A DNA stretch of 64,000 nt from Desulfoscipio gibsoniae DSM 7213. Lineage in GTDB: Bacteria > Bacillota > Desulfotomaculia > Desulfotomaculales > Desulfallaceae. Made by a program: the position numbers and the translations under genes. Below are positions 1,997 through 29,844 of this stretch, piece by piece. The stretch is from assembly GCF_000233715.2 (NCBI RefSeq), contig NC_021184.1, forward strand, positions 3,682,001-3,746,000, read 5' to 3'. How positions within the stretch are numbered: the stretch's first letter is position 1; the number at the start of each line of letters is the position of its first letter. The notes beneath the pieces are model-generated. The model saw only the letters and a list, made by a program, of their open reading frames with translations, made no database searches and was not told the DNA's origin.

Positions 1997-3286
1997 ATGA
2001 GGAAAATCTACGAGGGCATAATGCAGGCATCAAGATCATATGCCCAGTGGGAAATAGCAAACTCCAACGCGATATTAAGAGATCGCAAAAGGGTCATGCT
2101 ACTATTTGTAATGCTGCTGCCCGTAATTATCCCGGCCATTGCTCATGCCGCAGGCGGAAGTGGATTGCCGGAAGTGCTTGGGGGCAAGTCAGCCTACGGT
2201 CCTTCATACTATAACCCGACCATTTTTTATGGTTCAATATTGGTGGGGCTTGCCGCAGGTCTAATCACGGGATGTGTCGGCGCCGGTGGTGGATTTATCA
2301 TTACCCCCGCACTGATGACCATGGGTGTTAAGGGAATTATGGCCGTAGGTACAGACCAATTCCATATTTTCGCCAAGTCTATAATGGGCACAGTTGTGCA
2401 CAAAAAATTAGGTAACGTCCACGTTGGTTTAGCAATAGCATTTTTGTGCGGCTCACTACTGGGGGTTACCGGCGGCGGTATGCTTAACCGGGCACTTTTT
2501 ACCATAAACCCTGTACTAAGTGGATTTGTAATTAATACAGTATACGTAATCATGCTTGGATTTTTAGCCATCTACGCATTGAACGACTTCTTTAGAACCA
2601 GAAAGTCCGGGCATTCTGTAGATGCCCACGGCGGAGGAGGATCCACTGATCTCACCAGTGCAGCAAGAAAGATGCAGTCCGTCAAGATTCCGCCCATGAT
2701 TACCTTTGATGAAGATATTCATCCCGGCGGCAAAAAAATTTCCGGTGTGTTCGTGGCCATCTGCGGTGCCATCGTAGGTTTCATGGCAGCTATCATGGGA
2801 GTAGGCGGCGGCTTTTTAACCTTCCCCATGTTCGTATATGGTCTGGGCGTATCCTCCTTTACCACTGTGGGTACTGACATACTGCAAATTATCTTTACTG
2901 CAGGCTTTGGTGCCATTACCCAATATGCCATATACGGTTACGTGTTCTACACTCTGGCCATGGGCATGTTGGTTGGATCCCTGCTGGGCATTCAAGTTGG
3001 TGCCATGACCACCAAGGTTGTATCGGGTGCTACAATTAACGGTTTTTATGCTATCACCATCCTGGCGGGCTTTGTCAACAGGTTGTTTGATATGCCCAAC
3101 AACTTACAGCAAATGGGTTATATTTCCATAAGCTCGCAAACTGCTAGTATTATTGCTCAAATTGGTGCAGTTATCTTCTTTGCCATTGTGGGAATATTTG
3201 CCGCCTGGGTAATAGCAGTATTTATTAAGAGCGTACCCAGGCTGCGTGAAGAGGCAGCAATGGCATCTAATGGAAAGGGGGAATGA
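1997..3286 (+). CDS. TauE/SafE (TSUP) family sulfite/anion permease
   Basis: Membrane permease of 429 residues of the TauE/SafE (TSUP) family, whose members move sulfite, sulfonates or other organosulfur anions. It has the duplicated layout of the family. Each half carries a glycine-rich motif, GAGGGFIITPALM near residue 96 and GVGGGFLTFPMFV near residue 268, followed by several hydrophobic spans. A hydrophilic loop (RKSGHSVDAHGGGG) joins the halves. I chose the ATG at 1997 because AAGGGGG lies about 9 bases upstream. The in-frame ATG at 1940 lacks a ribosome site. The next gene follows after 4 bases, so the two are one operon. Three Rex-like palindromes lie in the upstream region. Direction and substrate of transport are inferred from context. 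Confidence 0.85.
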   Translation: MRKIYEGIMQASRSYAQWEIANSNAILRDRKRVMLLFVMLLPVIIPAIAHAAGGSGLPEVLGGKSAYGPSYYNPTIFYGSILVGLAAGLITGCVGAGGGFIITPALMTMGVKGIMAVGTDQFHIFAKSIMGTVVHKKLGNVHVGLAIAFLCGSLLGVTGGGMLNRALFTINPVLSGFVINTVYVIMLGFLAIYALNDFFRTRKSGHSVDAHGGGGSTDLTSAARKMQSVKIPPMITFDEDIHPGGKKISGVFVAICGAIVGFMAAIMGVGGGFLTFPMFVYGLGVSSFTTVGTDILQIIFTAGFGAITQYAIYGYVFYTLAMGMLVGSLLGIQVGAMTTKVVSGATINGFYAITILAGFVNRLFDMPNNLQQMGYISISSQTASIIAQIGAVIFFAIVGIFAAWVIAVFIKSVPRLREEAAMASNGKGE

Positions 3287-3290
3287 CTTC

Positions 3291-4001
3291 ATGATAACCA
3301 ATAAGAAAACATTCACCCTGGGATTGGTGCTTTTGGTATCCTTTGTAGCTGTATTCGCCTTTATCATGTCCCCTTCTTTCGGAGATGGCCGAAATGGTCT
3401 TGAATATGCCGATGATATGTTCAACTCGCTTTCCAAAGGCTCAGCTTACTTTATTAGTGAAGAAATGGTGAAGGCGGAAAAGATGGCTGGCCATGAAGTT
3501 AACGTGACTATCGTGGCGGCAGACAGCACACAAGCCCAAATGTGGGAAAAACTCTACACCCCTACCGGAGCTAACGTAGATATTAACGGCAACGAAGTGA
3601 CTATTAAAGGCGATCTCGGCAACATCTTTACTGCGTCCATCACCGACAGCGATGCTATGTACAATAACCAGGGCGATAAGATTGCCAACAATTACGGTGT
3701 TGACGCCCGGACTGCATCCTATGGCTGGTACACTTCACTTAAGGCCATGAGCGGCGCACTGGATAAGCAGGGAATGTTCCCTGAATCCGCTGCTATCCAA
3801 AGCGTCATGAAAAAAGCGCTGGAACCCTCTTATAATTACTATGGTATTGAACCCAAGAAAGTCGCGGACTATACAGTAGCTGTTTTCCTACTGCTGGCCT
3901 TCTACCTGGTGTATACCCTGTGGTACGGATTCTCAATCTACTTCCTGGCTGATGGCTTTGGTATCACCGCATCCAAGTCAGCCAAAAAGGTGCAAGCATA
4001 A
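3291..4001 (+). CDS. Periplasmic-domain membrane protein, TauE partner
   Basis: Uncharacterised protein of 236 residues with an N-terminal span (TFTLGLVLLVSFVAVFAFIM), a hydrophilic middle part of about 165 residues, and a C-terminal span (VAVFLLLAFYLVYTLWYGF). The topology puts the middle domain outside the membrane. No cysteines or haem motifs are visible in that domain. The start at 3291 follows GGGGG about 9 bases upstream, and the gene begins 4 bases after the permease stop, so co-translation is likely. I infer an accessory or substrate-capturing role for the TauE-type permease. The family is not one I can name. Confidence 0.7.
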   Translation: MITNKKTFTLGLVLLVSFVAVFAFIMSPSFGDGRNGLEYADDMFNSLSKGSAYFISEEMVKAEKMAGHEVNVTIVAADSTQAQMWEKLYTPTGANVDINGNEVTIKGDLGNIFTASITDSDAMYNNQGDKIANNYGVDARTASYGWYTSLKAMSGALDKQGMFPESAAIQSVMKKALEPSYNYYGIEPKKVADYTVAVFLLLAFYLVYTLWYGFSIYFLADGFGITASKSAKKVQA

Positions 4002-8607: not shown

Positions 8608-8625
8608 ATGTGATATATATCACAA
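8608..8625. promoter_or_regulatory. Rex/HcpR-like palindrome before DUF2292 copy 2
   Basis: ATGTGATATATATCACAA contains a perfect TGTGA-N6-TCACA palindrome 42 bases ahead of the GTG at 8668. Possible core promoter elements (TTGACC at 8581, TATAAT at 8596) lie just upstream, so a bound protein would cover the transcription start. Confidence 0.5.
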
Positions 8626-14443: not shown

Positions 14444-14697
14444 TCCCCCCTTTATGTTTTATTAGCGTTATCATTATAATATCAGACATAGCTCAAGAAA
14501 ACATCCCCGCCAATAAATCCTCAAACCAGCATCAGATTGCTCCTCATAAAATGTCAAAGTGGTGACAAGCGACAGTGACAAAATTTTTTTTAAAAAACTA
14601 TTGAATTAACTGGTTACATTGTGTTAATATGTTGTCAAATGTTAATGTTAAAAATTTATTATTTTTGATTCTTGAGAAGAATTGCACAAGCACAGCC
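14444..14697. other. AT-rich intergenic stretch with TGACA repeats
   Basis: Between htrA and the downstream end of the transposase-like gene. The only structure seen is the pair GTGACAA...GTGACAA 13 bases apart near 14575-14595, which may be part of the htrA promoter region. No ORF or hairpin of note. Confidence 0.3.
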
Positions 14698-14731
14698 AAA
14701 AAAAAACAGTTGCCATAAAAAGACAACTGTT
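14698..14731 (-). terminator. Terminator of the transposase-like gene
   Basis: On the minus strand AACAGTTG and CAACTGTT form an 8-bp stem followed by a run of T (A-run at 14698-14706). It lies 23 bases after the stop codon. Confidence 0.8.
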
Positions 14732-14753
14732 CCATTAGGCTGATTAGATATAT

Positions 14754-16415
14754 TTAAACTATAGTACGCTGTTCTTTAAACAAACCAATAGCGTTAAATA
14801 TATCTTCCTGATATTGGGAGATATTTGTTACTGATTTAAGCTCTTGATCGTCTAATTGACTAATTACTATTTTAATATCTTCAAGCAAAAGCAACGCTTG
14901 GCGCATATCCAAAGTTAATCCTGCCTGGCGCATTAATATTTCCATCGTTTTTTCAATTATGGCAGCAAGAACGCAAATGAATATATTAGCTGATACTTTA
15001 AGCTCTGCATGCAGTAAGTTTTCCCAGGGTTCAAAGTTTTTTATTTCACGAAATGAGTCAGATAAAAGAGCAAGGCCGGTATAAGCTTTAATTATCTCTT
15101 CCCCCCTGAGGAAATTATTATTCGTTTCCAGGAGGAAAGATCCAGCTAATACTCCATCTTGGTCCAACAAGTCATCTCTGCGCCGGTAACTAAACTCCAT
15201 AGTAGACTCATCATAGTGCCATTCAAAATATTTGCGGCAGTAATTATCTTTAAAAACTAGCAAGTTTTTATTAAATACTGGTTTTCCCTTACTGGTACGG
15301 CCATCTTGAACCGTCTTTTTAATAACTTGTAATTCATTTTCTATATCATGTAGTCTTTCACCAAGCAGGGCCCTCATTTGCTCGGACCCCATGGGATTAC
15401 TGCATAACAAATAACGGGTGTCACCATTTTTTATTTCTTTGAACCATAAATCCTCGGATATTTCCTGAAACTCATGCCTGTTCGCTTGCCATTCAAGTTT
15501 AAACATTTCACGGTCCGGCTTGGAAATTAATTTACTACCAATAATATAATCATAATTATGTGCGATTAAAATTTCGAGGTTAGGGTTATTAATAACGCTA
15601 CGCTCTCCCATAAAGGTACATTTATCAATACCAAAGCTTTTCTTCAAGTAATCCATGATACTTCTAAATTCCCAATCCTCAGATGACTCATGCAAAACAC
15701 GGTGTCCCAGAGGCATACCGTCACGGCTAACCAGTAAACCAAAGTCAACTTTCTTATACTCTTCAGGTTCGCCCAGGATGTATCTCCCATAGGATGTTAA
15801 ATTCAATTCCTCGCGTGGCGCGGGTTCAATCATACCAGTGGCAAGTCGACAAAAGGCCAGGTCGGTATTAATATGCATTAAAGAAGTTAGTTTGTTAAAT
15901 ATATTTCTTTCCAACTCTTCTTTATAATCTGCTACCACATCTAACGCCCGATAAAAATGATGCGCTGATAATTCTTTCCCTGATAGCGATGGCAAATATA
16001 AACACTTATACCAGTCACTAATGGCCTGCTTATGCTGCGGTTTAATAATCTGATTTATGGCCATCAACTCAACTAACAGGGATATATTCATTGTTTCATA
16101 ATCCTTGCCCGGGGCTACAGTTTCCTCAATAATTCTTTCGACTCCCAGTAATTCGTAAATTTTATGTATGGCCAATACTTCGCCATAGCGCAAAATTTTT
16201 TTAGTTTCCAAATGGCCGGACTGGTGATCGACACCACATATTTTGGAGAGACCGGCGATTAATCCGTTGACTTTATCAGGAGTCAGTTTATCCATACTCC
16301 CAAGATTAGCAATTACACGTTGTTTAACTTTATCGCCTTCCCTATAATTCTCTATTAATTTTAGGTAGGTATATTCTTTACCGTTGCTCCGGCTGGTTAT
16401 TTTCCGGAAAAACAT
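14754..16415 (-). CDS. IS1634-type transposase homologue, catalytic residues replaced
   Basis: Intact ORF of 553 residues in the IS1634 (IS4-like DDE) family. The N-terminus (GKEYTYLKLIENYREGDKVK then QRVIANLG) and the RNase H-like core are clearly recognisable. By eye alignment to family consensus, all three catalytic acids are changed: the usual FYDTT reads FCRLA (D to R), VGDRG reads MGERS (D to E), and VEEAFRTLK reads LSDSFREIK (E to S). The start at 16415 has AAGGTGG upstream. No terminal inverted repeats or target duplication were found. It has its own terminator and a sigma-A promoter overlapped by the same palindrome found at the transporter genes. Either a decayed IS that has kept its frame, or a domesticated DNA-binding protein. 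Confidence 0.85.
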   Translation of the reverse strand: MFFRKITSRSNGKEYTYLKLIENYREGDKVKQRVIANLGSMDKLTPDKVNGLIAGLSKICGVDHQSGHLETKKILRYGEVLAIHKIYELLGVERIIEETVAPGKDYETMNISLLVELMAINQIIKPQHKQAISDWYKCLYLPSLSGKELSAHHFYRALDVVADYKEELERNIFNKLTSLMHINTDLAFCRLATGMIEPAPREELNLTSYGRYILGEPEEYKKVDFGLLVSRDGMPLGHRVLHESSEDWEFRSIMDYLKKSFGIDKCTFMGERSVINNPNLEILIAHNYDYIIGSKLISKPDREMFKLEWQANRHEFQEISEDLWFKEIKNGDTRYLLCSNPMGSEQMRALLGERLHDIENELQVIKKTVQDGRTSKGKPVFNKNLLVFKDNYCRKYFEWHYDESTMEFSYRRRDDLLDQDGVLAGSFLLETNNNFLRGEEIIKAYTGLALLSDSFREIKNFEPWENLLHAELKVSANIFICVLAAIIEKTMEILMRQAGLTLDMRQALLLLEDIKIVISQLDDQELKSVTNISQYQEDIFNAIGLFKEQRTIV

Positions 16416-16523
16416 TAGAATCACCACCTTACTATTTAAAATATAACCAACAACTTAGCGCCTAGTTTATACCAATCTATTTTTGCGCGGCACCACCGCA
16501 TGCTACGCATTAGGTTGAGATTC

Positions 16524-16545
16524 AGTGGTTTTCACCACTTTTTTT
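16524..16545 (+). terminator. Plus-strand terminator antisense to the transposase leader
   Basis: AGTGGT and ACCACT pair around TTTC and are followed by seven T on the plus strand. No plus-strand gene ends here, so it would stop an unannotated transcript antisense to the transposase gene. On the minus strand it is a GAAA-capped hairpin in the leader. Confidence 0.5.
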
Positions 16546-16599
16546 ACACTACCTCTCGCTATGTTTTCCTTTAAGAAAACATTATATCTATTTAAATTT

Positions 16600-16628
16600 A
16601 ATATACCACATCAAATGCATTTGTGCAA
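16600..16628 (-). promoter_or_regulatory. Promoter of the transposase-like gene
   Basis: Minus-strand TTGCAC (16623-16628) and an extended -10 TGGTATATT (box at 16600-16605) with a 17-base spacer. The leader to the ATG at 16415 is about 180 nt. Confidence 0.6.
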
Positions 16629-16638
16629 TAATTCACCA
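16621..16638. promoter_or_regulatory. Rex/HcpR-like palindrome over the -35 box
   Basis: TTGTGCAATAATTCACCA overlaps the -35 box of the transposase-like gene promoter. Two positions differ from the perfect palindrome. Confidence 0.45.
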
Positions 16639-16711
16639 GTCATATTTAAATAGTCGTAATTGTCAGATAGTTAAATATGCTATATTGATGTATAATTGTT
16701 GTCACTTTTTT

Positions 16712-18211
16712 TTACCAGATTCCCAGCATGCGCCACCATATACCTGCCAGGCCAACCACCACAATAAAAAATGAAAGGATAAACAAAAACCCACCGGCTT
16801 TTAAAAAATCAGAGGCCTTTAAGAATCCAAGACCATAAACAATGGCATTAGCCGGGGTGGCTATTATCAGCAAGTAAGAAAAAGCCGACCCCAGTGATGT
16901 GGCCACTCCAATGGCCAGGGGAGAGGTATCAGCTAATTCAGCTGCTTGAATAAATACAGGCCCAAGAAAGGCAACGGTGGGGCCGTCCGCCATAGTATTA
17001 GTAGTAAACGCCGTAATGGCGGTGGTAACAGCCAGCAGCGGCAACCCTTTAGTAATCCCAAAAGCAACGGAGGCAGCAGCAAGAAGCTGTGTAGCCAACC
17101 AGGTCGCCGCACCAGTAGCCACCAGCATTTTACCCATAGAGATAGCCCCTGCATAAAGAAGCACCACACCCCACTGCGTTTTTTGCTGTAAGTAATTCCA
17201 ATCCACCAGGCCTAAAATTGCAGCCGCAACAATCCCCATCATAGCTATATTACCAACACCGAACTGTGTACTAAACAATACCCAACCGATCACCACCGCA
17301 ATGAATATGACCAAGGCAAGTTTTGCCTGAACACTCATAGGACCGCCGGCATCAATTTCATGCTGAATCCTTTCCAACACTTCCTCCAAATCATTAACTT
17401 CTGGCTTAAACAACCTCAACAGCCAGTATGTAACAAAGAAAATCATCAGCATCGTAAAAGGAAAGGCCATCAATATCCACTGCCCATAACCCATGCTAAC
17501 CCCCAGGCTATTTAAATAGCTTAGCATCAAAGCATTCCGAGCACCACCTGACGGAGTAAATACGCCACCGATAATTACCCCATAGGCAATGGCCAGCATC
17601 ATTAGTTTACCGAGATTTGGCACCTTTTTTATGCCCCCGCTGAGCGATACAATGGCAACGCCTATAGGCAGCATTATCGTAACTGTTGCATGTTCAGTAA
17701 TAAATCCGGCGCTAAGTGCGCAAAATGCCACCGTACCCAGCACCACTCGGTCGATACGAGTGCCGGATATTCTAAGCATGTACATAGCCAGCTTATTATG
17801 TATATTGTACTTAACAAGCATGGCCCCCATCATAAGCACGCCCATGATAAAGATAACGGCGTCGTCCATAAAAGTACGGGGCACATCCCTGTATGTACCA
17901 ATACCCATTACAACTTGATAAAAACCAATAATCATCGCTGTCATGGGGAGAGGAACAGCTTCAGTTAAAAAACAAACCACCACAAATACCCACAGAGCAA
18001 TGGCATATTTCCCTTCAGTGGAAAGACCACTAGGGGTGGGCATCAGACAGATAAAAATAAGCAGCAATACGGCTAGTATAAGCCACTTGCGCTCATCAAA
18101 CCGACGCGCAGGACTACCACCTGTGGAACCCCCAACAGGAGAACTACTATATCCGGGTGGTTTGTCTTTATTTTTAAAATGATGTAAATCAATAATTTTT
18201 CGTGTCGTCAT
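16712..18211 (-). CDS. SLC13/DASS family anion transporter, copy 2
   Basis: Membrane carrier of 499 residues of the SLC13/DASS family. A hydrophilic N-terminus of about 40 residues (with GGSTGGSPARR) precedes the first span. The core motif GGVFTPSGGARNALMLSYL lies near residue 215 and the second family motif reads AFTTNTMADGPTVAFLGPV, which is closer to copy 1 (5724) than to copy 3 (41938). A GGTGGAT ribosome site precedes the ATG. A leader hairpin and a Rex-like palindrome lie upstream, and a CBS-pair gene diverges at 18797. Sulfate or another divalent anion is the likely substrate by context only. Confidence 0.85.
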   Translation of the reverse strand: MTTRKIIDLHHFKNKDKPPGYSSSPVGGSTGGSPARRFDERKWLILAVLLLIFICLMPTPSGLSTEGKYAIALWVFVVVCFLTEAVPLPMTAMIIGFYQVVMGIGTYRDVPRTFMDDAVIFIMGVLMMGAMLVKYNIHNKLAMYMLRISGTRIDRVVLGTVAFCALSAGFITEHATVTIMLPIGVAIVSLSGGIKKVPNLGKLMMLAIAYGVIIGGVFTPSGGARNALMLSYLNSLGVSMGYGQWILMAFPFTMLMIFFVTYWLLRLFKPEVNDLEEVLERIQHEIDAGGPMSVQAKLALVIFIAVVIGWVLFSTQFGVGNIAMMGIVAAAILGLVDWNYLQQKTQWGVVLLYAGAISMGKMLVATGAATWLATQLLAAASVAFGITKGLPLLAVTTAITAFTTNTMADGPTVAFLGPVFIQAAELADTSPLAIGVATSLGSAFSYLLIIATPANAIVYGLGFLKASDFLKAGGFLFILSFFIVVVGLAGIWWRMLGIW

Positions 18212-18796: not shown

Positions 18797-19399
18797 ATGA
18801 AAAATCCCTACGAAAAGAAAGTACAAGATATTATGATCCCCATGTATGACTACCCTACAGTATCTGCCAAGGCAACCCTTAAAGATGCGGTCCAGGTACT
18901 GATGAACGCATATAACCCGCAGAAAAATAAGCCCCGGACGGGGCGACAGTGCGTTTTCGTTGTGGAAAATAACGAAATGGTGGGTATTTTTGGTATTAAC
19001 GAACTACTGGCAGCCATTGAACCCCACCACGTAAAGGGTACTATCTTTGGAGGAACCAAAGGTTACAATGTCTGGGCTATGCCTGTTTTTTGGGAAGGAC
19101 TTTTCACCGAACGCTGTGCAGAGGTCACCAATAAACAGGTTATTGAATACATGAGACCTATTGAAAGTTATGTTGATATAAAAGATACCCTGCTTAAAGC
19201 AGCATATTTCATGATCCAAAATAATATCGACGATGTGGCGGTAAAAGACAAGGGGCGCATTGTAGGGATGATTCGCAGGGCGGATTTATTCAAGGAAATT
19301 ACACGGTTAATGATAAGCGATGTCCAAATGCCCAATACAGCGGATCCCAACACCATGCCATATATGGGCAACCTGGCGGTTGATACCAAATCAATGTAA
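18797..19399 (+). CDS. Tandem CBS-domain protein, copy 2
   Basis: Cytoplasmic protein of 200 residues with a CBS pair. The first domain (about residues 8-75) carries VQDIMIPMYDYPTVSAKATL and VFVVENNEMVGIFGINELL. The second (about 115-170) carries YMRPIESYVDIKDTLLKAA and DDVAVKDKGRIVGMIRRADL. It shares layout with the protein at 7466 but differs in the linker and tail. GGGAGG precedes the ATG. It diverges from an SLC13 gene and faces an ArsB/NhaD-type gene. I infer adenylate sensing that sets transporter activity. Confidence 0.8.
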   Translation: MKNPYEKKVQDIMIPMYDYPTVSAKATLKDAVQVLMNAYNPQKNKPRTGRQCVFVVENNEMVGIFGINELLAAIEPHHVKGTIFGGTKGYNVWAMPVFWEGLFTERCAEVTNKQVIEYMRPIESYVDIKDTLLKAAYFMIQNNIDDVAVKDKGRIVGMIRRADLFKEITRLMISDVQMPNTADPNTMPYMGNLAVDTKSM

Positions 19400-19529: not shown

Positions 19530-20954
19530 TCAAACTGATTTATTCGCAGTTTCGCTTTTTGCTTTTTTAGCAGCGCTCTTTTCCAGCGCCTTGTTAATAG
19601 GCATTGCGGCTACTGCAACCAGCACTCCAAAAGCCAGAGTTATAACAATAGTTATTGTTTCCGGATAAATATGCCATAATAACATATATGCACTGCTAAG
19701 CACCAGTGAAATCAACATTAGCGGGAAAGCCACCACAAAATATTTCATAAAAGTTATATGGATACCCCGCTTTTCCGACATTCCGATCACTACAACATTT
19801 GCAGAAGCTCCTATTATTGTTCCATTCCCACCCAGGCAAGCACCCAGGGACAGTGACCACCAGAATAAATTAAGAGCTGTGGGATCGGTTATACCCATTA
19901 ATACACCCATATCATTAATCATTGGAATCATGGTTGCAACAAATGGTATATTATCAACAAAGGCAGATGCTATACCAGAAAGCCACAATATCAACATAGA
20001 GGTGGGTATCCAGGCACCGCCCGTTATATCCATAGCGGCAGCGGCCACCGCAGCAATTACCCCCGTTTCAACAAGGCCGCCCACTAGTACGAACAAACCA
20101 ATAAAGAAGAATATTACGGGCCATTCTACAGCGTGTAAAGCGTGTTCCGGGTCTTCCTTGCTGATTAGCAGCAGCAAGCTGGCCCCGGTCAAGGCAATCA
20201 CCGAGGACTCAAGGTGTAGATACTGGTGCAAAGCAAATCCGGTTATAGTAAGTGCCAGTACAATCAAACATTTACGCAGCAACTGCATATCTTTAAGTTC
20301 ATCGTGCTCGTTTAATTCCATTATTTTGGCTTGGCGTTGAGGGTCGGTGATTAGTTGAGAACGATATATAAAGCGCAATAGAGTCAGAGTAACTACATAA
20401 ATAACCACAACAATTGGGGTAAGATTAATGATAAAGTCCATGAAACCCAGGTGGGTTGCACTGCCGATCATGATGTTGGGCGGGTCACCTATCAAAGTGG
20501 CGGTGCCGCCTATGTTGGACGAAATTATTTCAGCAATTAATATAGGCATAGGATTAATTCTAAGTTTTTGGGCAATGGCAAATGTCACCGGGACAATGAG
20601 CAACACAGTAGTGACATTATCCAAAAGTGCTGACAAAACAGCCGTAACCAGGGACAGCGCCGCCATAATTTTTAGAGGCTCTCCCTTTGAGCTTTTGGCT
20701 GCCTTAATGGCAAGGAACTCGAAAATACCCGTCTGGCGTGTGATACCCACAATAATCATCATACCTACCAATAGGCCAATGGTATTAAAATCGATATGAT
20801 GCACCGCTTCTTCAGGCCCCAAAATTTTAGTAACGACAATTAATGCCGCACCTACCAGGGCAATAACAGTACGGTGAATTTTTTCAGATACTATGATAGC
20901 GTAAACGATTAAAAAAGTTGCAGTTGCAAAATATACTTGCAGATGCTCAGGCAA
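19530..20954 (-). CDS. ArsB/NhaD-type ion permease (IT superfamily)
   Basis: Membrane carrier of 474 residues in the ion-transporter superfamily (ArsB, NhaD and P-protein relatives, distantly SLC13). Diagnostic stretches are LLDNVTTVLLIVPVTFAIA and GGTATLIGDPPNIMIGSA in the first half, and FVDNIPFVATMIP and GGNGTIIGASANVVVIG in the second. It starts with TTG, preceded by AAAAAGGGGG 7 bases upstream. A hydrophilic KSAAKKAKSE tail closes the protein. The substrate may be Na+/H+, arsenite or an oxyanion; its place among sulfate genes favours an anion but does not prove it. A Rex-like palindrome lies at 21139. Confidence 0.82.
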   Translation of the reverse strand: MPEHLQVYFATATFLIVYAIIVSEKIHRTVIALVGAALIVVTKILGPEEAVHHIDFNTIGLLVGMMIIVGITRQTGIFEFLAIKAAKSSKGEPLKIMAALSLVTAVLSALLDNVTTVLLIVPVTFAIAQKLRINPMPILIAEIISSNIGGTATLIGDPPNIMIGSATHLGFMDFIINLTPIVVVIYVVTLTLLRFIYRSQLITDPQRQAKIMELNEHDELKDMQLLRKCLIVLALTITGFALHQYLHLESSVIALTGASLLLLISKEDPEHALHAVEWPVIFFFIGLFVLVGGLVETGVIAAVAAAAMDITGGAWIPTSMLILWLSGIASAFVDNIPFVATMIPMINDMGVLMGITDPTALNLFWWSLSLGACLGGNGTIIGASANVVVIGMSEKRGIHITFMKYFVVAFPLMLISLVLSSAYMLLWHIYPETITIVITLAFGVLVAVAAMPINKALEKSAAKKAKSETANKSV

Positions 20955-21138: not shown

Positions 21139-21156
21139 TTGTGAAATATTTAACTA
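21139..21156. promoter_or_regulatory. Rex/HcpR-like palindrome before ArsB/NhaD-type gene
   Basis: TTGTGAAATATTTAACTA, two changes from the perfect palindrome, about 185 bases upstream of the gene. On the minus strand it starts next to a TATGAT box. The rest of the 20955-21312 gap is AT-rich with no further structure seen. Confidence 0.45.
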
Positions 21157-21381: not shown

Positions 21382-22263
21382 TTACGCACTCACTCCAATT
21401 GATGCCAGAGCAGCACTCGGTGACACAATGTTATATTTAAGAGCCCAAGTTTCCGGTGGCAAGTCAAAAGCTATGGCCATTAATTGGGTGAAAAACAAGA
21501 TAGGCATGTTAAAATTTGTACCATGCACTTTATTAACCCGCCGCTGGTATGCGTCCAAGTTCATCTGGCACATTGGACAGGGGGTAGCAATAACTTGTGC
21601 TCCACCACGGTCTGCAGAATCAAAGATCTTGTGGATGCTATCAACAACTATTTCAGTTCCCGCAAGAGCGTTAGAACTGCCACAACAGCGAGCTTTCATG
21701 GGAAAATCGGTAGCCACCGCACCCAGGGATTCCATCAACCGGTCTAGCAGCACGGGATATTCGGGATCGTCAAACTCATATGGAATAGCCCGTACGGTTT
21801 GGCATCCCACATAGCCAGCTACTTTAAGCCCTTTAAGGGGACGTTTTACCCTTTGAGCGACTTTTTCAAAGCCTACATCATTGATCACTACTTCCAAGAA
21901 CTGGCGTACCCGCAGCGTACCGTCATAGTGGTAACCGCCAGCCGCCAGCGCTTCATTAGCCCTAGCTTTGAAATGCTCATCCTCCTGAAAACGTTTATTA
22001 GTTACTGCCAGGGTCAAATAACATGAACTGCAGCCAACCACCACATCCAATCCCTTGGGTTCTGCAATGGCCAGATTACGCCCGGTCATCACCTGCTGGG
22101 TAAAGTCACCCACTACACCGGAGGCCACTGATGCACCGCAACAGTTCCAATCAGGAATCTCCTCCAGCTGCAGGTCAAGAGCATGGGCTACTGCCTCAAT
22201 TGATTTTAAATTAGCCTGGGCTGTGGCCTCCATGGAACAACCAGTGTAAAAGCTATATCTCAT
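21382..22263 (-). CDS. hdrB: HdrB-like subunit of the Qmo complex
   Basis: Heterodisulfide reductase subunit B homologue of 293 residues, replacing part of QmoC. It carries two CCG domains: FYTGCS near residue 9, DWNCCGAS near 41 and VGCSSCYLTL near 79, then GYVGCQTVR, ARCCGSS and TPCPMCQMN in the second half. In HdrB these cysteines bind noncubane [4Fe-4S] clusters at the thiol/disulfide site. Its ATG overlaps the hdrC stop by 4 bases. In Gram-positive sulfate reducers QmoAB with HdrCB is the known arrangement for feeding electrons to AprBA. The final electron source here is not shown by sequence. Confidence 0.9.
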   Translation of the reverse strand: MRYSFYTGCSMEATAQANLKSIEAVAHALDLQLEEIPDWNCCGASVASGVVGDFTQQVMTGRNLAIAEPKGLDVVVGCSSCYLTLAVTNKRFQEDEHFKARANEALAAGGYHYDGTLRVRQFLEVVINDVGFEKVAQRVKRPLKGLKVAGYVGCQTVRAIPYEFDDPEYPVLLDRLMESLGAVATDFPMKARCCGSSNALAGTEIVVDSIHKIFDSADRGGAQVIATPCPMCQMNLDAYQRRVNKVHGTNFNMPILFFTQLMAIAFDLPPETWALKYNIVSPSAALASIGVSA

Positions 22264-22862
22264 GATCTAGCCTCCCTTTGGGCAAGTTCCTGGGCTTTAC
22301 GAATAATTTTTTTCAAGTTACCCAGGTCCTTAACTTTTTTCGGCGGCAGAAAAGGTAACCGGTTATGTTTGAGCATATCAATACCAACGTCTTTCATATC
22401 CATATATTTAATTACCTCGTCTAAGCCCTGAATCAAGAAATACCGGGCTGTTATGCCGCTCTCAAAAGACCTGCCACGGCTGGCAACTTCCGCCCAAAAG
22501 GCTTTATAAAAGGCGGCCTGAGGGTAATTGCAATACCCGTTATCCAAGGCATACTTTTTGAGGTCATGCATTACATCAACCAGAGGTATCCCCCTGGGGC
22601 AGCGTGCCTTGCAGGTACAGCAAGAGGTACAGTACCAAAATGTATTGGCCTGCATAACCTCGTCCTTTTTACCAAGCTTGATTAAATTGAACAACTTCCT
22701 GGGCGAGTAATCCATAATGTCACAGGTGGAACAGGAAACAGCGCACATGCCACACTGCATACATTGTTTAATATAAGCGCCATTCTCTAAACTATATATC
22801 TCTCTGGCAAATGTCAAATCATATTTAACTTTTTCAGGCAATTTATTAGTTTGTTCTATCAA
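22260..22862 (-). CDS. hdrC: HdrC-like iron-sulfur subunit of the Qmo complex
   Basis: Small iron-sulfur protein of 200 residues with two [4Fe-4S] motifs, CMQCGMCAVSC near residue 35 and CTSCCTCKARCPRG near 78, as in HdrC. It would link QmoA/QmoB to HdrB. No membrane span is visible, so the complex lacks the QmoC-type haem b anchor. It starts with TTG at 22862, with AAAGGAG 9 bases upstream. A hairpin separates it from qmoB. It overlaps hdrB by 4 bases and must be co-translated. Confidence 0.88.
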   Translation of the reverse strand: MIEQTNKLPEKVKYDLTFAREIYSLENGAYIKQCMQCGMCAVSCSTCDIMDYSPRKLFNLIKLGKKDEVMQANTFWYCTSCCTCKARCPRGIPLVDVMHDLKKYALDNGYCNYPQAAFYKAFWAEVASRGRSFESGITARYFLIQGLDEVIKYMDMKDVGIDMLKHNRLPFLPPKKVKDLGNLKKIIRKAQELAQREARS

Positions 22863-22898
22863 AAGGCATGCTCCTTTTCCTTTTTTTAAAGGAGTACA

Positions 22899-22920
22899 GG
22901 ACGGCCATTACGGGCCGTCC
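22899..22920 (-). other. Intercistronic hairpin between qmoB and hdrC
   Basis: GGACGGCC and GGCCGTCC form a perfect 8-bp GC-rich stem. There is no T run directly after it on the minus strand, so it more likely sets mRNA processing or relative expression than full termination. Confidence 0.55.
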
Positions 22921-22979
22921 TTTCTATCTAGGTTGATACTAAACAAACTAAGATAAAATAGTTCCCCTAGTATTTCTAC

Positions 22980-25187
22980 CTATTGGAAGTCTTTCATCGG
23001 GTTGGGTCCTAATTCCTCTAGCTCGGCGGCAAAGTCATCAAGCATGGCCGGGATTTTATCGTAATCCATAATATTCACTGTGGTTGCACGTACCCGCTCG
23101 GATTCCAGACCCAGCCTGTTTAATGTCTCTGATATCTTGGAAAGGCGAATTTCAGCCAGCTCACTACCTTTCATAAAGTGGCACTGGTAGTCATCACCAT
23201 GTTTGCATCCCATCAACAATACGCCGTCAAAGCCCTTGGCCATAGCGTCGTTAACCCATACCAGGTTCAATGAGCCCAGGCAGCGTACGGGGATAATTCT
23301 TACCCACGGATTGTACTGTAAACGATTGATACCTGCCATATCCAGGGCGGGAATGGCATCGTTTTCGCACGCAAAGATAAGGATTCTCGGCTTTTCTTCA
23401 TCTTCTTCAGGAACTTCGATAGCCTTGACCATGTTACCAATCATTGGTACCGAGTAGTTCTTAAAGGAGATAATCCGCTCGGGGCAAGCACCCATACATG
23501 TACCGCATCTTCTGCAGCGGGTGGGGTTGGGCAACGGATTAGCCTTGGCATCCTCGTTAATGGCACCAAAGGGACATTCCTCGGTACACCGTTTGCACTG
23601 AGTGCAGCGGTTCATATTGAATTCCGGGAAGGACATATCGCCGGAACGGGGGTGCACCGCCTCACCCTTCATAGTGGATTCTATACACTGGATAGCCTTG
23701 AGTGCAGCGCCGGTGGCATCTTCCATGGCCGAAAGCATATCCATAGGAGCTCTTACCACACCAGCGGCATAAATACCAGTACGCCGGGTTTCATAAGGGA
23801 AGCAAATATAATGTGAATCAGGAAAACCATATTTTAGGGACGGCAATTCAGGACCCTGCCTGTATTCCAGATTCAACAAGTTGGACTTAATAATGGGCGG
23901 GACCGTCACCTTGGGCTCGTCAGCAGCAGCAGCGGCTTCTGCTTCGGCAGCTTCCTCTTCTATAAGTTCACCCAGTGCAGCACTGGGAACCATACCGTTG
24001 GCCAGTACCACCAGATCAAACTCATCAGCTTCGGACTTGGTGCCCATAGTATGATCATCAGCTTCAATGGTCAACTGGCCATCACTTTCACTGATATCAG
24101 TGATATCACCCTTGACAAAAATAACGCCTTCCTGCTGGGCTCTTTTATAAAAATGCTCGTACTGGCCATTGGAGCGAATATCTTTATAGTATACATATAC
24201 ATTAGCTTCTGCGTTCTTTTCTTTAACGTACAAAGCTTGTTTAATTGACTCAATGCAGCAGGCCGCGGAGCAATATGGCAAGTGTTCCTGATCCCTGGAG
24301 CCAGCGCACTGTATAAAGGCAACCTTGTTGGCTTCCATCTTGCCTGCGGCAACCATTTCTTCAAACATTAGCTGGGTAATCACATTTTCATACTTACCAA
24401 ATCCAAGATGTCCAAGCTTCTCAGGATCGTAAGGTTTAGCACCGGCAGCCAGAACTATTGCTCCTACTCTTTCCTCTGTTTCAGAGCCATTTTGGGCAAT
24501 AGTGACATCAAACATACCGGGACCACCGTCTGTTTTTGCTATACCGGCTGATGTATACACCTTAACGCCGGCGTCTTCGACAGCTTTAATCAAGGCGGGA
24601 ATACTGTTTTCTTCTAAATCGGTGAAAGGAGGCTTGGTGGGTATTTGCTTATACATTTTACCTACATAGCCACCCAGCGTATCTTCCTTTTCCACCAGTA
24701 CTGTTTTATACCCGGCTTTGGCTGATTCCAGCGCAGCGGTAAGACCAGTAAATCCACCGCCGACAACCAGAACTGTACTGGAAAGATTTTCGCCAATAAA
24801 GGGTTCCGGTATATTCAAGTTCTTGAGCTTGGCAAGGGACATACGCACGTAATCCTCAGCCAGCATTTGGGTATCTTCATCATCATTAGTATGACACCAG
24901 ATAACCTGTTCCCTTAAATTTACTCTTTCCACTATTTTGTCGGAGCCAAAATTGAATACGTCTGTATTAATCCTGGAAGAGCAGCCCACTACTACAACGG
25001 TATTGACGCCCTCTCCTTCGATATCAGCCTTAATTAACTCAATGCCGTTTTTTCCGCAGAGGAAAGCATCGGTTTTACAAATATCGGCTTTATATTCCTT
25101 AGATGCCACTTTAGACAGCGCATCTATATCCAAGGCATCTCCAATTCCGCATCCTGTACAAATATATACACCAATCTTCTTTTCCAT
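22980..25187 (-). CDS. qmoB: Quinone-interacting oxidoreductase subunit QmoB
   Basis: HdrA/MvhD-like flavoprotein of 735 residues. The N-terminal 130 residues carry extra cysteines, then comes the FAD fold (VLVVGGGFTGLTAALESA from residue 139). A low-complexity EAAEAEAAAAADEP insert lies near 410-425. Two ferredoxin motifs follow (CTQCKRCTEECP near 520 and CRRCGTCMGACP near 550), and an MvhD-type domain closes the protein (about 590-735, with FACENDA and MGCKHGDDYQCHF). It passes electrons between HdrCB and AprBA. The ATG overlaps the qmoA stop by one base (TAATG). Confidence 0.93.
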   Translation of the reverse strand: MEKKIGVYICTGCGIGDALDIDALSKVASKEYKADICKTDAFLCGKNGIELIKADIEGEGVNTVVVVGCSSRINTDVFNFGSDKIVERVNLREQVIWCHTNDDEDTQMLAEDYVRMSLAKLKNLNIPEPFIGENLSSTVLVVGGGFTGLTAALESAKAGYKTVLVEKEDTLGGYVGKMYKQIPTKPPFTDLEENSIPALIKAVEDAGVKVYTSAGIAKTDGGPGMFDVTIAQNGSETEERVGAIVLAAGAKPYDPEKLGHLGFGKYENVITQLMFEEMVAAGKMEANKVAFIQCAGSRDQEHLPYCSAACCIESIKQALYVKEKNAEANVYVYYKDIRSNGQYEHFYKRAQQEGVIFVKGDITDISESDGQLTIEADDHTMGTKSEADEFDLVVLANGMVPSAALGELIEEEAAEAEAAAAADEPKVTVPPIIKSNLLNLEYRQGPELPSLKYGFPDSHYICFPYETRRTGIYAAGVVRAPMDMLSAMEDATGAALKAIQCIESTMKGEAVHPRSGDMSFPEFNMNRCTQCKRCTEECPFGAINEDAKANPLPNPTRCRRCGTCMGACPERIISFKNYSVPMIGNMVKAIEVPEEDEEKPRILIFACENDAIPALDMAGINRLQYNPWVRIIPVRCLGSLNLVWVNDAMAKGFDGVLLMGCKHGDDYQCHFMKGSELAEIRLSKISETLNRLGLESERVRATTVNIMDYDKIPAMLDDFAAELEELGPNPMKDFQ

Positions 25188-26443
25188 TACTGTTGCCCCC
25201 TCACCGTAGATTGGATCGCCTTAAGTGCAGTAGCTGTGGCATCTCTCACAGCTGAGGCAACGTCCAACGGGTTTTTGACGCATCCGGCGGCATAAATCCC
25301 AGGCTGTGAACCGGATATTACAAAGCTATCCTCGTCATAATCCACTTCGGCGGGTATCTTGCTCACATTGGTAGCAGGTGCCATACCAGTGGCCAGCACT
25401 ACCATGTCATATGCTTTTTGTTCAACTTTTTGTTCAATCTGGTTTTCAGCCACAACTATTAATTGCTTGGTTGACGGGTCTTCCTTGATTTCGCCGGCCT
25501 TACCCTTGATGAATTGAACATTGGCTTCCCGCTCAACCTTAGTATAGAAATCTTCATATTTGCCCCTTGCCCTGATGTCTATATAATAAATATAAATTTC
25601 AGCATCAGGGTACTGTTCCCGCACATAAGTCGCTTGTTTCAAAGAAGCCAAGCAGCACACAGATGAACATGCTTTCAAATGGTTCTCATCCCGGGAACCG
25701 GCACATTGGATAAAAGCAATGCTCTTGATTTCTTTACCGTCGGAAGGACGTACAATTTTACCATTGGTTGGACCATTGATGGCAGCTAATCTTTCCATCA
25801 TTACATTGGTAATAACATTTTCATACCGTCCAAAGCCATAGTAGCTGAGTTTGGTAGCGTCATAGGCGTCCCAACCGGTAGCCCACACAATGGCACCCAC
25901 ATTTAAGTTCATTGTCTTAGGCTGCATATTTAAATCAATTGCTTCATACGGGCAGGCTGCCGCACATTTGCCGCACTCCGCACCTTGACATGCATCCATA
26001 TCAATAACATATTTCATAGGAAAGGCAAATTGATGCGGCAGGTAAATTGCCTTTGTCTTATCCATGCCATAATTAAAAGCATTGGGCCTTTGGGTAGGGC
26101 AAGCATCAACACAGTTATTGCAGCCGGTGCAGTTCTCATTAACAAAACGTGGGTTGATTTTTACTGTAACATCAAAGTTACCTTCCTGTCCTGAAATACT
26201 TTCAACTTCGGCCATGGTAAAGAAATTGATCCTGGGATTTTTCTTAATCCGCTGAAAATTAATTTCCAAACCACAGTTAGGTGGACACAGTTTTGGGAAG
26301 TACTGGTTAACCTGAGTTACCTTGCCACCCAGATACGGCTTTTTTTCTACAATGTAAACCTGCTGACCTGTTTCAGCGGCTTCCAGGGCTGCAGTTATAC
26401 CGCTAATGCCCCCCCCTACTACCAATATGCTTTTATTTGCCAT
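25187..26443 (-). CDS. qmoA: Quinone-interacting oxidoreductase subunit QmoA
   Basis: HdrA-like flavoprotein of 418 residues. FAD binding is shown by ILVVGGGISGITAALEAA (residues 6-23) and the later IVWATGWDAY. Cys53 and Cys57 (CPPNC) precede two [4Fe-4S] motifs: C105, C108, C111, C115 and C152, C157, C160, C164. QmoA is the conserved electron-transfer partner of APS reductase. The ribosome site is weak (GGTGAT). A terminator hairpin at 26536-26570 lies upstream, so qmoA may have its own promoter or depend on read-through from aprA. Confidence 0.93.
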   Translation of the reverse strand: MANKSILVVGGGISGITAALEAAETGQQVYIVEKKPYLGGKVTQVNQYFPKLCPPNCGLEINFQRIKKNPRINFFTMAEVESISGQEGNFDVTVKINPRFVNENCTGCNNCVDACPTQRPNAFNYGMDKTKAIYLPHQFAFPMKYVIDMDACQGAECGKCAAACPYEAIDLNMQPKTMNLNVGAIVWATGWDAYDATKLSYYGFGRYENVITNVMMERLAAINGPTNGKIVRPSDGKEIKSIAFIQCAGSRDENHLKACSSVCCLASLKQATYVREQYPDAEIYIYYIDIRARGKYEDFYTKVEREANVQFIKGKAGEIKEDPSTKQLIVVAENQIEQKVEQKAYDMVVLATGMAPATNVSKIPAEVDYDEDSFVISGSQPGIYAAGCVKNPLDVASAVRDATATALKAIQSTVRGQQ

Positions 26444-26535
26444 ATTTTATCACCACGCCATTTCTCCCGTGTTTGTATTTATCCTTTAATCATTTAGCAA
26501 GTTTTGTAATCTTTTTCTTACAGCCACCGGGAATG

Positions 26536-26570
26536 AAAAAAAACTCCAGGCGGCCTGTAAGGACGCCTGG
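26536..26570 (-). terminator. Terminator between aprA and qmoA
   Basis: On the minus strand CCAGGCG and CGCCTGG pair around an 11-base loop and are followed by AGTTTTTTTT. It should reduce transcription from aprBA into qmoAB. Confidence 0.8.
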
Positions 26571-26668
26571 CAAAATACTATCTCTGTAAACATTCGCCCA
26601 GTCCCTACAGCGCGACACAGTCATGACTGCAACATAACTGTTCGTTGTGCACCCTGTTCATTGTTACA

Positions 26669-26711
26669 GCGCAAAAGGCCCGTGGCCATCGGCTACGGGC
26701 CCTCTTTGCGC
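26669..26711 (-). terminator. Long GC-rich hairpin downstream of aprA
   Basis: Outer arms GCGCAAA / TTTGCGC and inner arms GGCCCGT / ACGGGCC give a long two-part stem. On the minus strand it reads on into TTTTGCGC. It is a second barrier between aprA and qmoA and could protect the aprBA mRNA 3' end. Confidence 0.6.
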
Positions 26712-26797
26712 CGTGGATGGCACATACTAAGAGTTACTTAACCTCGCCCGGGACATGGGGTGAGACTAATTTTTTGTAATTGGGGACATATTCGTTT

Positions 26798-26854
26798 GGG
26801 ACATACCTCCGAAGAGGTGTGTCCCCTTTCCATATTAGAGGTGTGTCCCCTTTC
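26798..26854. repeat. Direct and inverted repeat next to the aprA stop
   Basis: AGAGGTGTGTCCCCTTTC occurs at 26813-26830 and again at 26837-26854. The first copy also pairs with GGGACATACCTCC at 26798-26810 to form a hairpin. It lies 6 bases after the aprA stop and may be a small repeated palindromic element. Confidence 0.7.
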
Positions 26855-26860
26855 AATTAT

Positions 26861-28741
26861 CTAACCGAACAAGCGGATAACGGGCTTCTTAAATACATCC
26901 CACTGAGCAGTGGCGGGATCCCACTTAAGGTTAACAAAGCACAGCCAGTTTTCTTCATCCATCTTCGGAGCATCAGCACGGAAGTAGTAACCGGGCCAAC
27001 GGGTCTCTTCACGGAACATCACTGTGCGTACGTGAGATTCGGCTTGCCACATCCGGTGGATGTTTTCCCAGCATCTCATCAGTTCATGCAGGTCAGCAGC
27101 AGCCAGTTTTTCGGCGTCTTCTTTCATGAACTTAAGCAGTTCCACAGCCCTGTCGAGGCTAGGCTTGTTGGTGCTGAAGTTGGCACTCACGCCACCAACA
27201 TACTCGTCCATGAGCTTTTGCAGGCGGAACATGAACATTTTGGGTTTAATGTAAGCCGGGTTGACTTCGGGGTCAGTGGTAAAGTCTTTATTGGCTTCGT
27301 AGATTTCCAGAGGCTTGTAGGTAGCAGCCTTCAGTTCTTCCACTTTAGCAGCATCAACATTGGGCTGGGTGTTATTTTCCACGATGAACTTAATAGCAGC
27401 TTTAGCAGCAATTCTACCTTCAGCGTGTGAACCGGAGGAGAACTTATGGCTGGAAGCGCCGGAAGCGTCACCAGCAGCAAACAGACCCTTGACAGTAGTC
27501 ATGTTGGCATAACCCCAGAAATATTCAGCCGGAGCGATATCTTCGGGACCGGATACCCATGCGCCGGATGCACCGGAGTGAGAGCCGATGAAGTAAGGCT
27601 CAGCAGCAGCGATTTCGGAGGATTTCTCTTCCGGAGCAGTGTTGGTAGCTGCCCACAGCAGAGCTTGAGAGATAGTCATATCAAGGAAATCTTCCCAAGC
27701 TTCGGATTCCAGTTCCTTCATTTTCTTCTTGAAGGCCTTGGGATCATCTTTATAAGCATCAGCCAGCTTGGCAATAGCTTCGTTGGTCATCATGAGCAGG
27801 GGGCCTTTGCCTTCGCTTACATCCAGCATGCCAAGATAGTTACGCAAGTTGGCCGGAATCGGCTTCACCAGGCCATAAGGAGCCCAGTTTTGCAGTTCGT
27901 CACGGCGCTCTACCATGTATTCGCCACCAATAGCACTAATGGCTCTTGATTTAAAGAGCAGGAACCAAGCACCAACCGGGCCGTAAGCATCCTTGAAGCG
28001 AACCGGGATGAAACGTACTTCCTGGCAGGTCATTTCTGCGCCGGCACGGATTGTGAAATATGCACTGGAACCAGTGGAGAACGGGGGATACCAGGAACGG
28101 CCGAGACCTTCACCAGTGGAGCGTGGCTTGAATACGCCTACGGCACCGCCCATGCAGGCCAATACAGCTTTAGCTTTAAAAACATAGAATTTATTTTCGC
28201 GAACGCTGAAGCCCACAGCACCGGCAATTCTATCGCCATCAAGAAGAGGCTCAATAATGAATACGCGCTCGTAAATATTGTCCATACCAAGAGCGTTCTT
28301 GGCGGCTTCAGCAACGATGACCTTGTAAGATTCACCGTTGATCATGATCTGCCAACGACCTTCATTTACGTAATCACCATCGTCATTTTTCCAAATGGGC
28401 AGGCCCCACTTTTCAAACAAATGCACAGTGCCGTCAACGTGGCGGGCAATGTTATATACTAAGTCGTCACGGGCAATACCCATGAGGTCGTTTTTAACAT
28501 ATTCTACATACTGCTCAACAGTATTTTTGCCTTTACCAACACCGAGGTACTGGTTAATAGCGGACAGACCCATGGCCACAGCACCGGAGCGATCCATCGC
28601 GGCTTTGTCCACTAAGGTAACTTTTAGACCGTTTTTCTTGGCCCAGTAAGATGCTTCCACGGCTGCCCCGCAGGCTGCCATACCACCGCCTACGATAAGA
28701 AAGTCAGTGGTAACTTCAACAGTTTCAAAATTCATCGGCAT
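26861..28741 (-). CDS. aprA: APS reductase alpha subunit
   Basis: Dissimilatory adenylylsulfate reductase flavoprotein of 626 residues; it reduces APS to sulfite and AMP in the cytoplasm together with AprB. FAD binding is shown by FLIVGGGMAACGAAVEA (residues 14-30) and MDRSGAVAMGLSAINQYLG near 48-66. RFIPVRFKDAYGPVGAW and the C-terminal WPGYYFRADAP are typical of AprA. Length is normal. AGGAGG lies 9 bases before the ATG. The aprB gene is 54 bases upstream, in one operon. Electrons come from QmoAB-HdrCB encoded downstream. Confidence 0.97.
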   Translation of the reverse strand: MPMNFETVEVTTDFLIVGGGMAACGAAVEASYWAKKNGLKVTLVDKAAMDRSGAVAMGLSAINQYLGVGKGKNTVEQYVEYVKNDLMGIARDDLVYNIARHVDGTVHLFEKWGLPIWKNDDGDYVNEGRWQIMINGESYKVIVAEAAKNALGMDNIYERVFIIEPLLDGDRIAGAVGFSVRENKFYVFKAKAVLACMGGAVGVFKPRSTGEGLGRSWYPPFSTGSSAYFTIRAGAEMTCQEVRFIPVRFKDAYGPVGAWFLLFKSRAISAIGGEYMVERRDELQNWAPYGLVKPIPANLRNYLGMLDVSEGKGPLLMMTNEAIAKLADAYKDDPKAFKKKMKELESEAWEDFLDMTISQALLWAATNTAPEEKSSEIAAAEPYFIGSHSGASGAWVSGPEDIAPAEYFWGYANMTTVKGLFAAGDASGASSHKFSSGSHAEGRIAAKAAIKFIVENNTQPNVDAAKVEELKAATYKPLEIYEANKDFTTDPEVNPAYIKPKMFMFRLQKLMDEYVGGVSANFSTNKPSLDRAVELLKFMKEDAEKLAAADLHELMRCWENIHRMWQAESHVRTVMFREETRWPGYYFRADAPKMDEENWLCFVNLKWDPATAQWDVFKKPVIRLFG

Positions 28742-28795
28742 TTATATTAACCTCCTCCGTAAAGTTCTCTTAAATAACTTGACCTGGATTACTGG

Positions 28796-29800: not shown

Positions 29801-29844
29801 CATTATTTTATAGTGCATTGTTGCGCAAACCTTACATAACAAGC

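Follow-up and report, generated by a model that had tools for sequence, protein, structure and literature searches.

The gene and its product

We analysed a window of 64,000 nucleotides from Desulfoscipio gibsoniae DSM 7213 (contig NC_021184.1, positions 3,682,001 to 3,746,000), whose genome consists of a single contig (4,855,529 bases). Within it, a minus-strand gene at 14754-16415 encodes a protein related to IS1634 transposases, and a palindromic motif, here called site A (TTGTGNAATATTNCACAA), overlies its promoter and recurs before anion transporter genes. The gene and its signals comprise the following features.

14754-16415, minus strand: coding sequence of the IS1634-derived protein, 553 amino acids (aa) from the ATG at 16415, with AAGGTGGTG 5' of the ATG
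16236-16415, minus strand: N-terminal domain, residues 1-60, three strands and a helix, near-invariant, presumed to bind DNA (alignment and AlphaFold model)
14925-15857, minus strand: RNase H-like (Tn5-like) region, residues ~187-497, catalytic residues lost (AlphaFold model and structure match)
15846-15848, minus strand: codon R190 (FCRLA), at the first catalytic D (alignment)
15603-15605, minus strand: codon E271 (MGERS), at the second catalytic D (alignment)
15060-15062, minus strand: codon S452 (LSDSF), at the catalytic E (alignment)
16600-16628, minus strand: sigma-A type promoter, -35 TTGCAC (16628-16623), 17 bases, -10 TATATT (16605-16600), read directly
14703-14733, minus strand: intrinsic terminator of the gene (terminator scan)

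The frame is free of stop codons from 14754 to 16427 and extends to a GTG at 16427, upstream of the ATG at 16415. The NCBIfam model NF033559 (IS1634 transposase) matched the 553-aa protein over nearly its whole length (profile positions 1-481 of 483, E 1.1e-74, 252 bits with a cut-off of 100), which agrees with the first-pass annotation of this DNA, where an uninterrupted IS1634-type frame of 553 residues had been described. A Pfam scan of the protein gave a single chance-level line (E 0.098) and nothing better, and with an E limit of 1 neither NCBIfam nor Pfam listed a TnpB model. The AlphaFold model (predicted local distance difference test score 82) was matched by Tn5 transposase with a Z of 12.2 over residues 80-525 (317 aligned, root-mean-square deviation 6.4; Foldseek E 1.7e-4), and by this comparison it contains the RNase H-like core of the IS4/Tn5 type. 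No known fold could be assigned to the N-terminal 60 residues, as the best Tn5 matches begin only at residue ~77-80. Taken together, these results show, at the level of sequence and predicted fold, that the protein descends from an IS1634 (IS4/Tn5-fold) transposase.

The sigma-A promoter that the annotation had proposed, TTGCAC-17-TATATT, was read at 16628-16600 on the minus strand, and most of the orthologs shown have a sequence resembling it; a consensus scan listed an overlapping but weaker hexamer pair at this place. The proposed terminator after the gene was also found (14733-14703, minus strand).

Loss of the catalytic residues

The annotation had placed R, E and S, by eye, at all three catalytic positions. 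In our alignment R190, E271 and S452 do fall opposite D, D and E, a triad kept in 14/14 IS1634 rows outside the family, and the alignment puts D, D and E nowhere else in the protein. In the AlphaFold model, R190 lies in strand 187-196, E271 ends strand 266-271 and S452 lies in helix 438-453, and this order of strand, strand end and helix matches what is expected of an RNase H fold. The first D was kept in 0/29 aligned family members (R in 9, L in 9, H in 7, four others), as was the catalytic E (0/29; G 13, R 7, S 3, A 3, Q 2, K 1), while the second D was kept in 18/29 (E 6, N 3, K 2). Five full-size members outside the 29-row alignment (G032, G062, G065, G068 and G071) have also lost the first D and the E. 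Since both residues are gone from every family member examined, the loss is old and common to the family, and the change of the second D to E local. The loss of catalysis predates the genus and is not peculiar to this species.

A single-copy family under purifying selection

Each of the 7 genomes of the genus carries one near-full-length, stop-free copy with 60-100% identity. In the surrounding order, mostly of sulfate reducers and presumably the Desulfotomaculales, a whole-protein search at 1e-20 matched 58 of 113 genomes, true insertion sequence (IS) elements among them, and a search with the N-terminal 124 residues at 1e-12 matched 53 of 113. The N-terminal search of a phylum sample of 398 gave 9 matches, every one inside the order; in the genomes searched, the family is confined to this order (53/113). 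In a quick maximum-likelihood tree of 59 proteins, 45 family rows were separated from 14 triad-keeping rows with a Shimodaira-Hasegawa-like approximate likelihood-ratio support of 99. Orthologs share 31-80% identity and are nearly all stop-free, and their synteny crosses families.

The ratio of nonsynonymous to synonymous substitution (dN/dS, Nei-Gojobori) was 0.06-0.29 for the whole gene (11 of 12 pairs gave a value) and 0.00-0.06 for residues 1-60 (10 of 12 pairs), with several pairs near saturation at silent sites. The mean majority fraction was 0.92 in residues 1-40, which include 22 invariant positions, and 0.52-0.58 beyond residue 62. The gene is therefore under purifying selection, and these comparisons point to an old family that has mainly been kept vertically.

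The family has four forms: full-size, f8, 487-499 aa and short. The f8 form (genus g27) has 448-472 aa once trimmed to the conserved start and is homologous to the full-size form along most of its length (profile comparison, 99.9%, 9e-36). The IS1634 model gave 0.011 or no match on the two f8 members tested, and an f8-form model still matched Tn5 (Z 10.1). The 487-499 aa form matched the family at 6e-69. In the short form (273-344 aa as called), only the first 66 residues match (5/7 members aligned; 98.4%, 5.6e-15); no NCBIfam match was obtained in two members tested and no Pfam match in one. Each of the short proteins (L198-L204, 273-344 aa) stands beside SLC13 and CitMHS.

The same D. gibsoniae genome carries multi-copy IS1634-type elements, which are only 25-26% identical to the 553-aa protein, and no sister copy of the gene was found in this genome, the one close copy being the gene itself. 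With a single close copy, one near-full-length copy per genus member and conserved neighbours, the gene does not look mobile. Domestication of the open frame, which the first-pass annotation had suggested, is strongly supported by sequence comparison, because the first D and the E have been lost (29/29), the gene is present as a single copy in 7/7 genus genomes, its surroundings are syntenic, selection is purifying and the family forms its own clade. The evidence that the annotation had asked of relatives and of the genome points the same way: relatives have orthologs that lack the first D and the E (the 29 aligned and five more), whole-gene dN/dS is low (0.06-0.29), and the search for active sister copies gave only the distant elements. 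It is very improbable that a decaying or selfish IS that lost its activity recently has been misread as domesticated. The profile does label the protein an IS1634 transposase, but orthologs of 31-80% identity, nearly all stop-free, the 7/7 single copies, synteny across families and low dN/dS already contradict this account, which could stand only if the ortholog set had been built wrongly.

Anion transporter and sulfate-reduction genes around the gene

The following genes of the window surround the transposase-derived gene.

1940-3286, plus strand: TauE/SafE-type transporter, putative target (domain scan, upstream site)
16712-18211, minus strand: SLC13/DASS anion symporter, putative target (TIGR00785 over cut-off)
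18797-19399, plus strand: CBS-domain protein, conserved neighbour (domain scan, synteny)
19530-20954, minus strand: CitMHS-type transporter, putative target (domain scan, synteny)
21382-31083, minus strand: sulfate-reduction cluster with HdrB-like, HdrC-like and two HdrA-like genes, aprA, aprB and sat (profile scans)
26861-28741, minus strand: aprA, in the sulfate-reduction cluster
28796-29239, minus strand: aprB, in the sulfate-reduction cluster
29845-31083, minus strand: sat, in the sulfate-reduction cluster

The sulfate-reduction cluster (21382-31083) adjoins the anion transporter genes and is followed by CitMHS, CBS, SLC13/DASS and the transposase-derived gene. The two HdrA-like genes are presumably QmoB and QmoA, judging from their order. 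In the available text of PMC5840216, a DASS gene of this species is placed near sat and aprAB, as it is in the window. A by-eye count found TauE, SLC13, CitMHS or CBS in the fetched stretch of 26/32 full-size contexts, and such a neighbour in 8/8 f8, 4/5 third-form and 7/7 short-form contexts; these counts cover family contexts only and leave out two further full-size contexts, L091 and L100, where the open reading frame caller took another frame over the gene. The f8 contexts consist of the gene, TauE and a TauE partner, often as two tandem modules, and in most of these modules (L190-L197) an AAA ATPase and a VWA protein come first. The TauE partner is represented in the window by a protein at 3246-4001, which overlaps the TauE frame; its relatives stand beside TauE in many contexts, and it has no Pfam or NCBIfam match.

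The aprA gene was over the cut-off in 45/53 family genomes and in 25/60 other genomes. A role as an essential partner of sulfate reduction was rejected, as the co-occurrence with aprA is only partial.

Distribution of site A

Site A was located by pattern search, without strand, at these places in the window.

1801-1818: site A with 1 mismatch, 130 bp before the TauE gene
16621-16638: site A over the -35, 2 mismatches to TTGTGNAATATTNCACAA
18390-18407: site A, 187 bp before the SLC13/DASS gene
21139-21156: site A, 193 bp before the CitMHS gene
43512-43529: site A with 3 mismatches, 74 bp before another SLC13/DASS gene

At up to 3 mismatches, the window contains 8 sites where 0.69 are expected, and 0/100 shuffles reached 8, so the palindrome seen earlier over the -35 and at transporter genes is a genuine excess, with the site at 16621-16638 overlapping the -35. 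At up to 2 mismatches, there are 7 sites in the 4.86 Mb genome and 0 for the reversed pattern; four of the 7 are in this locus, before TauE, the transposase-derived gene, SLC13 and CitMHS.

We then surveyed upstream regions in 54 contexts (828,968 bases) for site A at up to 3 mismatches. Outside family f8, the site was present before the transposase-derived gene in 26/34 regions. It was also present before TauE (12/32), SLC13 (8/20), CitMHS (5/18), CBS (8/17) and the short paralogs (4/6), and before other genes in 6/207. Regions shorter than 60 bp had been dropped (transposase-derived gene outside f8 3/37, SLC13 10/30, CitMHS 3/21, CBS 14/31, short forms 1/7, others 137/363), as had another 19 regions of other genes whose intergenic stretch was common with family genes.

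The exact 14-base core GTGAAATATTKCAC was found in 21/34 genomes with the full-size gene and in 2/79 others (reversed control 2/113). The association extends in trans, since in G018 and G020 the sites lie before TauE on a contig other than that of the gene. Upstream of the short paralogs, a TTGAGAAATATTATACAA-type variant beats site A in 6/7 (one tie), and at the full-size genes site A beats this variant in 30/32. As for TauE orthologs of 53-76% identity in 8 genomes without the family, two of which are 86% and 57% complete, 0/9 carry the site at 3 mismatches (p 0.04). Among all 24 TauE-like loci surveyed, two have a site, weak in G038 and with the exact core in G047.

A candidate autoregulated regulator of anion uptake

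A dead core, a frozen N-terminus and a palindrome linked to the gene in cis and in trans are most simply accounted for by an autoregulated regulator. The best explanation, to which we give a probability of roughly 0.6 on sequence evidence, is that the gene encodes a transposase-derived transcription regulator of anion or sulfate uptake that controls its own expression. Catalysis has been lost, and the ~60 N-terminal residues, which presumably gripped the transposon ends in the ancestor, have stayed nearly unchanged. The protein would bind TTGTGAAATATTGCACAA-type sites over its own -35, giving autoregulation, probably repression; the position of site A on the -35 (TTGCAC) would suit repression. 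It would also bind the sites before the genes of anion or sulfate transporters (TauE, SLC13/DASS and CitMHS, along with a CBS protein) and thereby set the uptake of sulfate or a related anion. Dimerisation or sensing may be the role of the drifting RNase H-like part. The DNA-binding regulator suggested in the first-pass annotation is supported by association, through the operator distribution and the frozen N-terminus; that the 553-aa protein is the binder of the sites we infer, as we do the sign of the regulation and the signal.

The main rival is that a separate regulator uses the same palindromes: the protein would be domesticated without being the binder, a CRP/FNR- or Rex-like regulator would bind the sites, and the gene would be a regulon member with another role, for example DNA-architectural or RNA/DNA-binding. 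We consider this unlikely. The palindrome does resemble what we take to be CRP/Rex-type operators, TGTGA-N6-TCACA, to which another regulator could bind, and a response regulator and a histidine kinase are also encoded in the window. In G047, moreover, an exact core (L254 893-910) lies ~550 bp before a TauE homolog (33% identity to that of the window), with small frames between, although a search of this genome at 1e-12 gave no family member and its IS1634 protein retains D, D and E, which argues against a strict link between site and protein. Against a conventional regulator, however, there are only 7 sites (up to 2 mismatches) in 4.86 Mb with 4 of them here, unlike the regulon of a global regulator, and the core tracks the gene (21/34 vs 2/79), with 0/9 among the closer TauE orthologs without the family. 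In addition, the divergent short paralogs carry divergent sites, and the conserved neighbours that were scanned (some, not all) have no established DNA-binding domain above cut-off, at least 4 having no Pfam match.

Besides the operator likeness and the G047 site, several observations weigh against the autoregulated regulator. In family f8, site A at 3 mismatches was found before the gene in 1/13 and before TauE in 0/14, and it fits the third form poorly (1/5, at 4 mismatches). Exact-core sites in G019:C100, G028:C92, G033 and G078 are located within or upstream of genes matching no target. At the gene, the site and a conserved -35 overlap, and the promoter may account for some of the conservation of the site; since the genomes are related, the Fisher p-values overstate the association. 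As to aprA, 25/70 aprA genomes lack the family and 8/53 family genomes have no aprA over the cut-off. In G001, G002, G003 and G005 (L073-L076), where aprA is not over the cut-off, the gene is kept in a fetched stretch without an anion transporter; two close pairs among these genomes have the higher dN/dS values of 0.25 and 0.29, though for residues 1-60 the values stay at 0.02-0.04.

A possible relic of transposon ends

A further A-like site lies on the other side of the gene.

14672-14689, without strand: second A-like site, 3 mismatches, 64 bp past the stop codon and in the opposite orientation to the promoter site (pattern search)

The first-pass annotation had reported no terminal repeats. 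This was not confirmed: of the inverted pairs across the gene, the one listed first, which is also the strongest, is a degenerate pair of 19 nt with 79% complementarity (14671-14689 / 16621-16639). Both of its arms are site A, with 3 mismatches (14672-14689) and 2 mismatches (16621-16638), and together they resemble the ends of a 1.97-kb element. An inverted pair at up to 3 mismatches was found in G000, G004, G022, G023 and G024, and in decayed form in G006. In the five genomes, the second site is 52-78 bp beyond the stop and the pair spans 1.92-1.98 kb; the next gene beyond the pair differs, being HtrA in G000 and G004 and TauE in G022-G024. In these genomes, IS1634 copies have in common repeats of 1.84-2.02 kb.

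If the inverted pair is real, the operator would be an old transposon end. The corresponding account, in which the operator is a relic terminal inverted repeat, an immobile IS represses itself through its end-binding domain, and the transporter sites arose later by convergence or copying, would extend the autoregulated-regulator explanation and does not exclude it. It is favoured by the inverted A-type sites that flank the gene in 5 genomes and by a span (1.92-1.98 kb) that resembles IS1634 length. However, we consider it unlikely, because the pair occurs in only 5/32 orthologs, all from one family, compared to 23/489 background genes, and because the ends of the multi-copy IS1634 elements are unlike site A and were rejected as a match to it.

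Comparison with known systems

The likeness to IS1634 (NF033559, IS4/Tn5 superfamily) consists of a near-whole profile match and a Tn5-like model. IS1634 transposases have the same N-terminal segment, which is far less conserved than in the family; in contrast to these elements, the family has lost D and E, is single-copy and syntenic instead of multi-copy, and has its first 40 residues frozen.

In eukaryotes, host regulators derived from dead DDE (aspartate-aspartate-glutamate) transposases are familiar; these share with the present family a dead RNase H fold and a kept DNA-binding domain, and come from unrelated transposase families. TldR proteins originate from nuclease-dead TnpB. They are described in the available text of PMC13418256 as RNA-guided transcription factors. 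The likeness is that a transposon-borne protein has lost its nuclease and regulates host genes, but TldR is derived from TnpB and guided by RNA, whereas the ancestor of the family is a DDE transposase, and its contact with DNA would be direct. PMC8987985 deals with transcription factors of mobile elements that hosts have co-opted, Ner/SfsB among them; these resemble the present case in that a DNA binder of a mobile element is reused in host gene control. However, Ner/SfsB were helix-turn-helix regulators already. The main text of PMC8987985 contains no word that starts with DDE, and the available passages name no DDE-transposase regulator.

Literature searches on IS1634 together with a domesticated transposase, and on sulfate transporter regulation in Desulfotomaculum, found nothing, and searches on transposase and sulfate transport in Desulfotomaculum gave only off-topic papers. 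No bacterial regulator derived from a DDE transposase was found in the literature searched, where eukaryotic cases and TnpB-derived regulators turned up. PMC5840216 compares sulfate transporters in sulfate reducers, and its main text, as available, has no words starting with 'regulator', so the control of uptake in sulfate reducers looks open as far as this source goes. What would be new here is a transposase domestication, of a known kind, that took place in bacteria, from a DDE transposase, and is tied to anion or sulfate transport. The family allows a direct test of both questions via short DNA sites.

The family also places steps of domestication side by side: triad-keeping IS1634, the full-size dead form, eroded forms, and short forms with the N-terminus only. 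The eroded forms are hardly or no longer detected by the IS1634 profile, and in these genomes some genes labelled 'IS1634 family transposase' may be something other than mobile elements. A wider scenario seems to us possible but somewhat doubtful. In it, a radiated family of regulators (full-size, f8 by TauE, ~300-aa by SLC13/CitMHS, each with its own sites) would descend from a DDE transposase of bacteria, with the relic transposon end as operator and the end-binding domain as DNA-binding domain, and would control how a major group of sulfate reducers takes up sulfate.

Other strings in the window

The repeat GTARTGACAA was rejected as the operator, as it is absent before the short paralogs (0/6) and occurs in 2/9 TauE loci without the family. 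It was found upstream of the gene in 7/13 f8 and 12/34 other regions, upstream of TauE in 9/14 f8 and 18/32 others, and in 8/207 other regions; the 11-base form has 9 genomic occurrences, two of them in the window, compared to 4 in the reversed control. It may be a second regulatory element besides site A. Related GTGACAA-type repeats are present in the window at 14553-14590, 16699-16706 and 43694-43701. In the f8 modules (L190-L197), strings such as GTGCAAAAAAGTACTTG are found upstream, where site A would be. Two other palindrome-like strings in the operator region of the transposase-derived gene, CAAATGCATTTG and TGCACAAATGCA, were rejected as a shared operator, with no excess in the window.

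A T-box or other RNA leader was also rejected: a string like a T-box antiterminator is present at ~16482-16496, yet the window has 0 Rfam hits at the gathering threshold, and an Rfam scan of 16400-16720 gave chance-level lines only. The leader of the gene contains a terminator-like hairpin on the plus strand at 16524-16539 (AGTGGTTTTCACCACT, then a T run), and in this hairpin region GTGGTGAAAACCAC, on the strand of the gene, is kept in G004 and G006.

A distinct palindrome, ATGTGATATATATCACAA, lies at 8608-8625, 320 bp before the gene of a single-domain response regulator, and TTGTGATATATATCACAA lies 296 bp before the gene of a related response regulator in G020 (L212). The palindrome at 8608-8625 may thus be a separate operator.

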